A stretch of DNA of 64,000 nt from Leptotrichia sp. oral taxon 498 (lineage in GTDB: Bacteria; Fusobacteriota; Fusobacteriia; Fusobacteriales; Leptotrichiaceae), in the NCBI RefSeq assembly GCF_002240055.1, contig NZ_CP016753.1:1178001-1242000 (forward strand). The letters are read 5' to 3'. Below the pieces are notes generated by a model. That model saw only the letters and a program-made list of their open reading frames with translations. It was not told where the DNA came from and searched no databases. Made by a program: the position numbers and the translations under genes. Shown here piece by piece: positions 51,139 to 55,839 of this stretch (positions are counted from its first letter, which is position 1; the number at the start of each line of letters is the position of its first letter).

Positions 51139-51885
51139 TTATTTTATTTTATCTCCTGTCATTATTAACGGCATTGAATTCTCAGCATTAAATTCTGATT
51201 TATCAAATCCACCATAAATTTTTATATTTTTGAATCCTATTTTTTCAAAATAATTTTTTAATTCACTGTATTCAATATTTAAAAGAATTTCTTCATTTTC
51301 TATTTTATTATCTAAAATCGTTTTAAAAATAATATTATTTTCTTCATTCAAATAATAGGCTCTCTCAAATTTTACTTTTTCATTTTCAATCAACGGAAGA
51401 TTTCCAAGAAAATTATTTTTATTTTTATTCTTCTCTTTGTTCTTTATAAATTTTACAAAATTAATAATTTGAATTATAATTTTCCCGCCATCATTCAATT
51501 GGTTGTAGGAGTTTTCTAAAAATTCATAAATTTCTTTTTTACTGTTTAAATGTGGCAATGCATTTCCTATGTTTATTATTGTGTCAAAGTTTGGAAATTT
51601 ATCTATGTTTAACATATTTTCATTTAGAATCAAAATTCCTTTTTCAGCTGCTTTTTTTATAAGCCTTTCGTTTAAATCAATTGAAGTTAGTTGTAAACCT
51701 TTTTCATTCAAATATTTTGTCACTTTTCCTGTTCCTGCTCCAACGTCAAGTATCTTTCTACCTTTTACTTCTTCATCTAAAAATTTTTTCTGCATTGATG
51801 ATAGAGGGAAAATGTAGTCGTATTTATCTGCAATTGTGTCATAAAATTTTTTCATGCTTTTTTCATTTTCTTTTCTATTTGGCAT
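51139..51885 (-). CDS. Class I SAM-dependent methyltransferase
   Basis: A 248-residue Rossmann-fold methyltransferase. Motif I is ILDVGAGTGKVTKYL (about residues 46-60); the acidic motif II is LTSIDLNERLI; motif IV-like FDTIINIGNALPHLN follows. The N-terminus FYDTIADKYDYIFP is common in methyltransferases acting on small molecules or quinones. The substrate cannot be told. A long Lys/Asn-rich insertion (KNKEKNKNKNN, near residue 150) is typical of AT-rich genomes. AGGAGCTGATTTT precedes the ATG. Confidence 0.85.
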   Translation of the reverse strand: MPNRKENEKSMKKFYDTIADKYDYIFPLSSMQKKFLDEEVKGRKILDVGAGTGKVTKYLNEKGLQLTSIDLNERLIKKAAEKGILILNENMLNIDKFPNFDTIINIGNALPHLNSKKEIYEFLENSYNQLNDGGKIIIQIINFVKFIKNKEKNKNKNNFLGNLPLIENEKVKFERAYYLNEENNIIFKTILDNKIENEEILLNIEYSELKNYFEKIGFKNIKIYGGFDKSEFNAENSMPLIMTGDKIK

Positions 51886-52142: not shown

Positions 52143-53012
52143 ATGAATATATTTGAGAAAAAAATAAAAATTAACGAACTTACAAATTTAAGAAATAATC
52201 TTATGAAAGAAGGAAATGTCACAAAGGAAGTTGAAGTTTTAAAAGAATTGTCGCCACTTATTGAAGAAGTTTTCGGTGAGAAAAGTGATGAAAATATAAA
52301 AATTTTAAATGAAGTTGGGGGAACTCTAAAATATGTCGGCGAGTATGACAAAGCAAAAAACGCTCTTTTAAAAGCGCAAAAACTTATTATTGGGCGATAT
52401 GGGGAAAATAGCGTTCCTTATGCGACTTGCAGTTTAAATTTAGCTGAAGTTTACAGATTTATGAAGCAATATGACCAGACGGAAGAAATTTATTTAAATG
52501 CAATGAGAATTTACGAAGAAAATAATTTGCAAAATGACTATGTTTACGCAAGTGTCTGCAACAATTTAGCACTTTTTTATCAGGAACTTTCACAATTTGA
52601 AAAAGCGATTTCTCTTCAAGAAAAAAGTTTAAAGATTTTAGAAGAAAAAGGAGAGAATCCGATTCAATATGCAATAACATTAAGCAATCTTGTGCAACCT
52701 TACATAAAAATAAAAAATATGGAAAAAGCGAACAAATATTTAAAAAAAGCGCTAAATTTAATCGAAATTGAAGTTGGAAAATCTCACAACTTGTATGCTG
52801 CTATTTTAAACAATGTCGCAAGTTTTTACTTTGAAGAAGGTGAATATAAAAAAGCACTTGAACTTTTTAACGAAAGTTTGGAAATCTGTAGAAATGCTTT
52901 TGGCGAAAACAGTAATAACTATAAAAATATTTTGGAAAATATTCAAATTGCAAAAGAAAAAATTGGAGATAATTCTGAATCTTATGATAAAACAGAATAT
53001 ATCAGCTGGTAA
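52143..53012 (+). CDS. Tetratricopeptide-repeat protein
   Basis: A 289-residue protein built almost entirely of TPR units of the kinesin-light-chain type, for example YDKAKNALLKAQKLI, YDQTEEIYLNAMRIYEE, FEKAISLQEKSLKILEE, MEKANKYLKKALNLIE and YKKALELFNESLEICRN. There is no signal peptide or enzymatic domain, so it is probably a cytosolic scaffold. It lies 20 bases upstream of the DUF4037 gene, with the DUF4125 gene beyond, and this trio is likely one operon. GGAG lies 10 bases before the ATG. Confidence 0.85.
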   Translation: MNIFEKKIKINELTNLRNNLMKEGNVTKEVEVLKELSPLIEEVFGEKSDENIKILNEVGGTLKYVGEYDKAKNALLKAQKLIIGRYGENSVPYATCSLNLAEVYRFMKQYDQTEEIYLNAMRIYEENNLQNDYVYASVCNNLALFYQELSQFEKAISLQEKSLKILEEKGENPIQYAITLSNLVQPYIKIKNMEKANKYLKKALNLIEIEVGKSHNLYAAILNNVASFYFEEGEYKKALELFNESLEICRNAFGENSNNYKNILENIQIAKEKIGDNSESYDKTEYISW

Positions 53013-53032
53013 AAATGAAATTAGGAGAAAAT

Positions 53033-53980
53033 ATGGAAAAGATAAAAGGTTTGGAATTATCCAAAAAATATTTTGAAAAAGTTTATTTGCCAATTATAAA
53101 ATCAGAATTTCCTGAAATATTGGAAAAAATGGCGGCAGGACTTGCAGGAGAAGGCTCGGAGTGCTTTGGTTTTGATGATGAAATTTCAAAGGATCACGAC
53201 TTTGGTCCATCTTGCTGTATTTGGCTGGACAACAATGATTTTGAAAAATATGGATTAAACTTACAAAAAAGACTAAATGAACTTCCAAAAGAATTTATGG
53301 GATTTCCAGTTTTTTGTGAAAGCGAATTTGGAAGCAACAGGCGAGGTGTGCTAAATATCGACGACTGGTACTACAAATTTTTAAATCGAGCTGACTGTCC
53401 AAAAGATTTATATGAATGGCGACTAATTCCAGAAAAATTTCTAGCAACTGCTACAAATGGAGAAGTTTTTTTAGATAATTTAGGAAAGTTTTCAAAAATA
53501 AGAAATGAATTAAAAAATTATTTTCCAGAAGACATAAGACTAAAAAAAATTGCCGCAAGATGTATGAAAATGGCACAATCTGGACAATATAACTATTACC
53601 GATGTATGCGAAGAGGAGAAATCATTGCAGCTAGACTTGCTGAAAGTGAATTTATTTCTGAAGCAATCCACATGATTTTTTTACTAAACAAAACCTACAA
53701 GCCTTTTTACAAATGGATGGCAAAAAAAATGAAAGAACTTCCAATTTTAGGAGAAAAAATTTATTTTTTAATCGAAGAATTAATAAAACTTCCGACAGGT
53801 GCATTAAATAGAAAAGGAGAAATAATCGAGGAAATAAGCATGTCTGTAATTAACGAGCTGAAGCGTCAAAGTTTAGTTCCAAGACAAATCCCAAGCGATT
53901 TTTTACAAGACTACGGGCCTTTTGTCCAGCAAAAAATTAGCGATGAAAAACTTCGCAATTTACATCCAGCGTCAGATTAA
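53033..53980 (+). CDS. DUF4037 protein with nucleotidyltransferase-like core
   Basis: A 315-residue cytosolic protein that fits DUF4037. The N-terminal core AGLAGEGSECFGFDDEISKD followed by HDFGPSCCIWL looks like the GS...D-x-D-x-D arrangement of Pol-beta-type nucleotidyltransferases. The C-terminal half is helical (RNELKNYFPEDIRLKKIAAR, YYRCMRRGEIIAARLAESEF, YKPFYKWMAKKMKELP) and resembles the helical domain of aminoglycoside nucleotidyltransferases. Transfer of a nucleotide to a small molecule or protein is a hypothesis only. AGGAG at 53022-53026 selects ATG 53033 over the in-frame ATG at 53015. Neighbours: TPR protein upstream, DUF4125 downstream. Confidence 0.78.
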   Translation: MEKIKGLELSKKYFEKVYLPIIKSEFPEILEKMAAGLAGEGSECFGFDDEISKDHDFGPSCCIWLDNNDFEKYGLNLQKRLNELPKEFMGFPVFCESEFGSNRRGVLNIDDWYYKFLNRADCPKDLYEWRLIPEKFLATATNGEVFLDNLGKFSKIRNELKNYFPEDIRLKKIAARCMKMAQSGQYNYYRCMRRGEIIAARLAESEFISEAIHMIFLLNKTYKPFYKWMAKKMKELPILGEKIYFLIEELIKLPTGALNRKGEIIEEISMSVINELKRQSLVPRQIPSDFLQDYGPFVQQKISDEKLRNLHPASD

Positions 53981-54089
53981 ATAAAATCAATAAACTAAAT
54001 TTATTAATTAATTAAAAGAAAAATAAAAAAAATATTGTTGTTAGTAATATTAGTATTAATATTAATATTATTAATTAAGAAAGGAAAAG

Positions 54090-54722
54090 ATGGATAGAAA
54101 TATTACAAAAAAAGAAAGTTATATAAGACAAATTTTAAAAAGGGAATGGGAATTTTTCCAGCAAGTGCACCACACCGAAGGAAGAGCTGAATGTCAAAAT
54201 AATCCCGCGGAATTTGAAATTATGAGAAGAAGCCAGTGGGAAACACTTCCTTGTGAAATTTTGGAGAGTTATTTAGAAGATTTAATTTTGGCAAAACATA
54301 AAAATCAAAACTTAGTTCAGGATAAATATGCCAGAATGATGGAATTTAGCTCTCCAAAAGAATTTGAACTGATAAAATCATATTTGCCAGAAATTTCTTT
54401 AGAAAAAAAAGAAATTATAAAAAAAATTGTGAAAATCTATTTAAAATGGGAACTTGAAATAATAGAAAAATATCCGCACTTGGCTTCTAAAGCAAGACCG
54501 CTTTACTCAAAAGATGATACGCCAAATTACACTTCAATTGAAACATACTTAAAAGGCGAATTAGCTTCATATTCCTTAAAAACTCTAAAATTATATTATA
54601 ATTTTATTTTGGAATATTTAAATCAAAATAAAAATTTAGCGCTTGAAAATATTCAAAATATCGTTTTGAAAAAGGGATTTTCTTCGCTGGAAGAAGCTGA
54701 AAATATAAAAACAGAAATTTAA
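54090..54722 (+). CDS. DUF4125 family protein
   Basis: A 210-residue, mostly helical, soluble protein matching DUF4125. Recognisable stretches: ILKREWEFFQQVHHTEGRA, FEIMRRSQWETLPCEILES, YARMMEFSSPKEFELI, and HLASKARPLYSKDD followed by SIETYLKGELASYS. There is no known catalytic motif; His, Glu, Arg and Trp are conserved-looking in the first 60 residues. Its placement after a DUF4037 gene agrees with the recurrent pairing of these two uncharacterised families that I recall from other genomes. AAAGGAAAAG precedes the ATG. A hairpin terminator follows. Confidence 0.75.
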   Translation: MDRNITKKESYIRQILKREWEFFQQVHHTEGRAECQNNPAEFEIMRRSQWETLPCEILESYLEDLILAKHKNQNLVQDKYARMMEFSSPKEFELIKSYLPEISLEKKEIIKKIVKIYLKWELEIIEKYPHLASKARPLYSKDDTPNYTSIETYLKGELASYSLKTLKLYYNFILEYLNQNKNLALENIQNIVLKKGFSSLEEAENIKTEI

Positions 54723-54729
54723 AAAAATA

Positions 54730-54780
54730 AAAATCAATATTTCTAAAAATTATAAATATTTTTAATATTGATTTTTTTTA
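54730..54780. terminator. Bidirectional terminator
   Basis: AAAATCAATATT and AATATTGATTTT form a 12-bp stem with a further AT-rich inner pairing, flanked by A- and T-runs, between two converging genes. Confidence 0.7.
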
Positions 54781-54783
54781 TTT

Positions 54784-55839
54784 TTAATTTAGTAAATTTT
54801 TATATTCTATTTCCGTTTTTCTTATAATTTCTACTTTTTTCTCATTTATCATTTGACGAAAAAATACATTTTTTATTTGGTTGCTCTGAGATGAAAAATA
54901 GTTTCTTACATTTTTTATAATATTTTTTAAATATTCTTCTTTTGTCTTTTCCTGCGCCTTTTTTAAAGCCTCTTTTTTTTCTTTCAACATTTCTTCCAAT
55001 AACTCTATTTCTTCTCTTTTAATTGAGTCAAGTCTCTTCGCTCTCAAAACCTCTTCTTTACCAAACTCATCCAAAATATCCAAATTTTCTATATTCTCAG
55101 AAAAATCACTTTTTCTCTCGTCTTTCTGCATCTGTTTGTCGTCATCTTCTTGCAATGCTTCCACTTTTTCAGCCTTTTTCGCAAAAATTTTACTGCTCAA
55201 TTTTGAAAAAAATCCACTTTTTTTATTTGGATTTTCCACTTCTTCTTCATAATTTATTTCAATTTCAATTTGTGTTTTTTTATCCAAATCTTCTAATTCT
55301 GCGTTTCTAATATTTCTAATTTTTTCCAGTCTTTCTTTTTTCATTTTAAATTTTTCAAATTTTTGAATTTCCCACTTTTCCCTTATCTTTTCGTTATTAT
55401 AATCCATTTTTTTATAAAAGATTTCTTTTTTTAATTTTTCTATTTCATCTTTTTCACTTTTAAAATCTTCAATTTTTCTCTTGATTTCCGAATCAAAAAA
55501 AGAAATTTTACTAGTCTGATTCACTTCTTCCGAATAATTTTTTATAATAAGTTTCACTTCCAAAAATAAATCACTAAAATTTGTATTCAGAAATTTTTTA
55601 TTTCTCTCTTTTATATCTTCTAAATTTTGAATCATATCTTTCTCTAGAAATTGACTCACATAAGTTTCGATGTTTTCCAAACTTTGATATGATTTTTCTT
55701 CTAAAAATTTTATAATTTTATTTTCAGATTTTTTAAGTTCTGATTCCAATTTTTTATTTATTGAATTTTCAATTTCATTTGTTCTAATTTCCAAAAGATT
55801 TTTTATATCTTGTAATTTATCCATTTTTTGTTTTTTCAT
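54784..55839 (-). CDS. Coiled-coil protein of unknown function
   Basis: A 351-residue, highly charged (Lys/Glu-rich) protein. It is predicted to be largely coiled coil, for example residues about 125-195 (DEIEKLKKEIFYKKMDYNNE and what follows) and about 270-305 (REEIELLEEMLKEKKEALKK). The middle has a short GFFSKLSSKIFAKKAEK stretch that could be a surface-binding amphipathic helix. No signal peptide or enzyme motif is seen. I do not recognise a family; large GTPase-associated or cytoskeletal-type proteins look similar at low resolution only. It is a single gene converging on the DUF4125 unit. Confidence 0.6.
   Translation of the reverse strand: MKKQKMDKLQDIKNLLEIRTNEIENSINKKLESELKKSENKIIKFLEEKSYQSLENIETYVSQFLEKDMIQNLEDIKERNKKFLNTNFSDLFLEVKLIIKNYSEEVNQTSKISFFDSEIKRKIEDFKSEKDEIEKLKKEIFYKKMDYNNEKIREKWEIQKFEKFKMKKERLEKIRNIRNAELEDLDKKTQIEIEINYEEEVENPNKKSGFFSKLSSKIFAKKAEKVEALQEDDDKQMQKDERKSDFSENIENLDILDEFGKEEVLRAKRLDSIKREEIELLEEMLKEKKEALKKAQEKTKEEYLKNIIKNVRNYFSSQSNQIKNVFFRQMINEKKVEIIRKTEIEYKNLLN

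Follow-up and report, generated by a model that had tools for sequence, protein, structure and literature searches.

DUF4125 proteins are strongly tied to glycyl-radical enzymes (GREs) across genomes, and the three neighbouring genes of Leptotrichia sp. oral taxon 498 that encode a TPR protein, a DUF4037 protein and a DUF4125 protein form one conserved module, which probably helps to make, guard or regulate these enzymes. GREs, which are destroyed by oxygen, drive trimethylamine and skatole formation in the gut, the fermentation of pyruvate and the anaerobic breakdown of hydrocarbons. How cells open these enzymes for activation and rescue them has long been poorly understood beyond the PFL of E. 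coli. A putative GRE partner family that is widespread and has a nucleotidyltransferase attached offers a testable handle on this step, together with a candidate function for two DUF families. The TPR-DUF4037 fusion was known before, having been noted in 2013 (PMC3710099), whereas the tie between DUF4125 and GREs is new here.

The trio occupies positions 52143-54722 of the window, i.e. the stretch of 64,000 nucleotides that was analysed, and its three ORFs lie on the same strand in the order originally described: a TPR protein of 289 aa (52143-53012, +; Pfam TPR_12, E 1.4e-34), a DUF4037 protein of 315 aa (53033-53980, +; PF13228, E 2.8e-38) and an all-helical DUF4125 protein of 210 aa (54090-54722, +; PF13526, E 4.2e-71). 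The 20-base spacing reported for the first two genes is correct given a DUF4037 start at 53033, an ATG that follows GGAG (an in-frame ATG is also found at 53015), and 109 bases separate the DUF4037 and DUF4125 genes. The terminator expected 3' of the third gene was recovered as an A+T-rich hairpin that carries a run of T residues (54729-54776, no strand assigned; MFE -12.9 kcal/mol, z -3.42, 0 of 200 shuffles equally low), which a G+C-based consensus terminator scan missed. This hairpin stands between the DUF4125 gene and a gene on the opposite strand (54784-55839, -), whose product is a coiled-coil-like protein of 351 aa without Pfam match; since that gene is convergent with the trio, the hairpin is able to serve both strands. 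The nearest named locus found was that of Leptotrichia hongkongensis.

That the three genes represent one protein module follows from their conserved order and from natural fusions. Indeed, DUF4125 was detected in 32 of 98 Fusobacteriota genomes, with a strong DUF4037 match directly adjacent in 32 of 32. Among 80 loci found in genomes other than the source genome, all three parts were encoded by a single ORF in 20 (mostly in other phyla, three-part fusions being frequent in gut and sediment anaerobes), TPR and DUF4037 formed one ORF in seven, DUF4037 and DUF4125 one ORF in three, and three separate genes were seen in 20; DUF4037 and DUF4125 occurred without a TPR call in a single locus. The domain content of two fusions was confirmed by Pfam. 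The TPR protein of the window corresponds to the N-terminal part of the TPR-DUF4037 and TPR-DUF4037-DUF4125 fusions seen elsewhere, and an HMM built from the TPR segments of such fusion proteins scored 356 bits against it. Natural fusion is strong evidence for joint action of the three parts. The co-occurrence of the two DUF families that was put forward originally is thus real and stronger than stated, far from the chance level that would have spoken against it, and the proposal of a conserved functional unit is upheld both by adjacency in Fusobacteriota and by the one-ORF fusions.

The tie to GREs was examined in two samples that were not picked by gene context. Of 294 Dehalococcoidia genomes, 58 contained a GRE, as against 15 of the 15 that carried DUF4125 (P 5e-12), and in a sample of 345 Desulfobacterota genomes a GRE was present in 108 overall, compared with 30 of the 32 genomes with DUF4125 (P 9e-15), relatedness being ignored in both P values. 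For the two Desulfobacterota genomes with DUF4125 and no detected GRE, one of the hits is a fragment. Physical linkage points the same way: in the Desulfobacterota sample, with only the listed GREs counted, linkage within 10.5 kb was observed in 11 of 37 cases (0.5 expected), and 12 loci of the 80-locus set showed a GRE sequence over 1.14 Mb of flanking DNA, where about 1-2 were expected. A set of 35 genomes gave 13 linkages for 0.7 expected, a figure that is biased because some of its loci were picked after GREs had been seen; the Desulfobacterota and 80-locus sets are those relied on. No GRE lies within 10 kb of the majority of DUF4125 loci. When linkage was placed on the DUF4125 tree, at least nine changes were required if only well-supported branches are considered, and the best tree required 14, so that GRE linkage is not one inherited locus. 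These changes, together with the lack of a GRE bias where DUF4037 occurs without DUF4125 (one of six), provide a partial control for the relatedness behind the P values.

The Fusobacteriota are uninformative as to GRE presence, because 88 of the 98 genomes carry one. Of the 33 DUF4125 copies in this phylum, a single one has a GRE nearby, and this copy is a paralogue rather than a member of the trio. In the source genome, the sole GRE found is of PFL type (C1:511508-513271) and lies about 0.7 Mb from the trio, which is not linked to it. Dependence on GREs and linkage to GREs, taken together as the mark of a GRE accessory, were both found for the DUF4125 family, but not, as physical linkage, for the source genome's own copy. 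On this evidence, a functional link between DUF4125 and GREs is very likely.

Gene order suggests where this link may operate. In the neighbour map of the 80 loci, GRE and GRE-activase genes recur, and DUF4125 follows a GRE activase after about 22 bp in L103, 40 bp in L175, 73 bp in L073, 74 bp in L177 and 107 bp in L178. In G067, a genome of the source genome's family, a second DUF4125 gene sits inside a choline-lyase operon (L172), surrounded by an activase and microcompartment-like genes, and the GRE of this operon matches CutC (1647 bits for a cut-off of 1050). For the GRE of L177, the best match is benzylsuccinate synthase alpha at 1396 bits, the genes running GRE, AAA_5/CbbQ_C ATPase, VWA protein, radical-SAM activase and DUF4125, with the same order in L178, while the GRE of L179 is an indoleacetate decarboxylase. 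The linked enzymes, which include CutC, BssA-like and indoleacetate decarboxylase, differ in chemistry and have only the glycyl radical and its activation in common, and on this ground DUF4125 is placed at that step; we consider it likely, though with less confidence than the link itself, that DUF4125 acts on the GRE or its activase rather than in substrate metabolism. AAA_5/CbbQ_C ATPase genes resembling the BssE chaperone stand beside GRE- or activase-linked DUF4125 in L177 (with the VWA protein), L178, L175, L100 and L141.

A broader role has to be weighed here, namely that the trio regulates anaerobic catabolism in general, covering CoA, Fe-S and radical enzymes, and that its tie to GREs is a by-product of how common GREs are in these operons and organisms. 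DUF4125 carriers do belong mostly to anaerobic lineages, and other DUF4125 neighbourhoods, with no GRE in view, contain ETF, CoA-transferase, fumarase-like and TRAP genes as well as genes for a 2-hydroxyacyl-CoA dehydratase activator. However, such a by-product fits poorly with the direct adjacency of activase and DUF4125 in several operons, with the unrelated chemistry of the linked GREs and with the near-absence of DUF4125 from GRE-less genomes in two phyla, and we regard it as improbable.

Rather less probable still is a division of labour in which DUF4125 alone serves GREs, the TPR-DUF4037 part answering another signal and having become coupled to DUF4125 in certain lineages so that both are regulated together. 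DUF4125 was found without DUF4037 in 29 of the 80 loci, a few of which may be cut by short contigs, and DUF4037 without DUF4125 displayed no bias towards GREs (a GRE in one of six). Nevertheless, all three parts have been fused repeatedly, and their co-occurrence persists even when they are unlinked: among GRE-containing Dehalococcoidia, unlinked DUF4037 tracked DUF4125 (8 of 15 genomes, against 9 of 58 overall; P 2.6e-5). Taken together, a functional role in GRE biology for the complete TPR-DUF4037-DUF4125 module seems somewhat more probable than its absence. Standalone DUF4125 genes of Lachnospiraceae (L102, L107, L119, L127, L129, L134) are located in a conserved housekeeping block next to genes for a DUF6320 zinc-ribbon protein, a condensation-like protein and an alpha/beta hydrolase. 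In two Chloroflexota loci, a protein of ~125 aa with a Phage_ABA_S sandwich domain is encoded between DUF4125 and TPR-DUF4037 (L131:10694-11071 and L124:5302-5694).

The DUF4125 protein of the window matches PF13526 over its full length (profile positions 2-197 of 197). Its AF2 model is of high confidence (pLDDT 95.3) and all helical, and a structure search of the PDB with this model matched no known fold. Twelve residues were invariant in 62 of 62 sequences (E19, F23, C35, Q36, R46, K79, Y80, M83, M84, R136, Y153 and E157). A redox-cysteine mechanism was considered on account of Cys35, invariant in this main alignment; yet the residue is missing in L175 and in L177 and L178, which represent the benzylsuccinate-synthase-type operon, so that such a mechanism is not universal.

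DUF4037 is confidently assigned, by fold and acidic motif, as a Pol-beta/ANT-type nucleotidyltransferase, its activity being predicted. An N-terminal domain of this type (GEGSE...FDDEISKDHD) is followed by a C-terminal HEPN-like helical domain, and the PF13228 match covers residues 135-235 only, i.e. the C-terminal helical half. The AF2 model (pLDDT 95.9, pTM 0.92) retrieved 3c18, ANT(4'), kanamycin nucleotidyltransferase, ANT(6) and LinB by Foldseek, with E-values of 1.8e-4 to 5.5e-4 and a probability of 1.00 for 3c18 and ANT(4'), although whole-chain TM-scores reached only 0.34-0.45. Across 47 homologues, G39, G41, D49, S52, D54, H55, D56, R190, R194 and W228 were invariant, and the GS motif (G41-S42) and D54-H55-D56 were invariant or nearly so, with the DxD present in 47 of 47. 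The features by which ANT/Pol-beta superfamily members are recognised, a nucleotidyltransferase fold with a helical HEPN-like tail and GS and [DE]x[DE] motifs, were thus observed; the nucleotidyltransferase core read from the sequence in the original prediction is supported by the match of the model to aminoglycoside nucleotidyltransferase folds and by the conserved acidic motif. PDB sequence searches with single proteins and profiles gave no match for DUF4037 or DUF4125, and no NCBIfam family scored above its cut-off for either. Elsewhere in the source genome, a second gene with a weak DUF4037 match (L002:1153-1929, near 1516249 of G000:C1) lies downstream of a purH-like gene and encodes a Pol-beta nucleotidyltransferase of another kind (PF18765, PF04439), with no TPR or DUF4125 gene adjoining.

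The closest solved folds, ANT(4'), kanamycin nucleotidyltransferase, ANT(6) and LinB, could suggest that DUF4037 is an aminoglycoside-like adenylyltransferase of small molecules and that the cluster is an antibiotic-response system. DUF4037 shares fold, domain order and the acidic DxD with these proteins and 3c18, but at about 10-14% identity, with a motif of its own (GEGSE-x(4)-DDExS-x-DHD), with TPR and DUF4125 as partners to which it is also fused, and in no resistance or mobile context. The trio is moreover near-universal in the source genome's genus and family, and the one DUF4125 match in a plasmid collection is a chromosome-sized record of 2.1 Mb. We therefore consider a resistance function highly improbable: the unit and the nucleotidyltransferase core proposed originally both stand, while the antibiotic-response reading, of which neither sequence nor context bears a sign, does not, and the GRE tie and the natural fusions had been overlooked.

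Equally improbable is a nucleotidyltransferase-HEPN toxin-antitoxin or anti-phage system. The C-terminal half of DUF4037 is assigned to the HEPN superfamily in PMC3710099, but it is listed there without a conserved RNase motif; in our homologue alignment of this half, no conserved RxxxxH (HEPN Rx4-6H) was seen, a conserved RxxxR being present instead. Furthermore, the trio is stably present across a family, and PADLOC models matched neither DUF4037 nor DUF4125, the TPR protein receiving a generic weak match only. A scan of viral contigs for DUF4125 gave no match. A human faecal record titled 'Bacteriophage sp.' and marked as unverified (L185; MT835476.1 80587-89501) holds TPR-like and DUF4037 genes amid cell-like genes and is probably bacterial DNA.

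Known GRE maturation and repair factors were also compared. BssE/TutH-type AAA ATPases and GRE activases share operons with DUF4125 (L177, L178), but DUF4125 is neither an ATPase nor a radical-SAM protein, and no solved fold related to it was found. GrcA/YfiD, the spare glycyl-radical subunit of GRE repair, would likewise serve a GRE in trans, but DUF4125 lacks a glycyl-radical domain. GlnD and GlnE are nucleotidyltransferase regulators of glutamine synthetase, in which a Pol-beta nucleotidyltransferase with a helical tail switches a metabolic enzyme; they are a model for the possible action of DUF4037, with a protein as presumed target, and no membership by sequence is claimed. An independent published case is the limonene ring-cleavage operon (PMC12583861), in which bssE is followed by lrcL (DUF4125) and lrcM (DUF4037), in a single operon that is transcribed and expressed; the paper gives LrcL and LrcM no function, and its available text describes no TPR partner.

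DUF4125 would accordingly be pictured as a GRE accessory factor that may bind the GRE, the radical-SAM activase or the complex of the two and help to install the glycyl radical, to protect it or to remove it safely, the direction of this effect being inferred. TPR-DUF4037 would regulate the action of DUF4125 by nucleotidyl transfer, with either a component of the GRE machinery or DUF4125 itself as the probable acceptor, the HEPN-like tail and the TPR partner perhaps selecting the target, and the transfer could be a switch tracking oxygen, substrate or ATP. That DUF4037 modifies a protein of the GRE machinery is a fair guess at best, which we hold with more doubt than belief. In the source genome, the trio would serve the unlinked PFL-type enzyme, as judged from the family and from this being the sole GRE found. 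The full proposal is an unrecognised GRE control system common to five or more phyla, in which a TPR-DUF4037 nucleotidyltransferase switch would act through the new-fold DUF4125, which in turn would open, guard or quench the radical of enzymes as varied as PFL, choline lyase, benzylsuccinate synthase and the decarboxylases; it is tentative and, as a whole, rather unlikely.

Finally, a SAM methyltransferase gene (51139-51885, -) is divergent from the trio, and a homologue with 64% identity (L172:648-1376) adjoins the choline-lyase operon with the DUF4125 paralogue in G067; this shared neighbour may be a coincidence.
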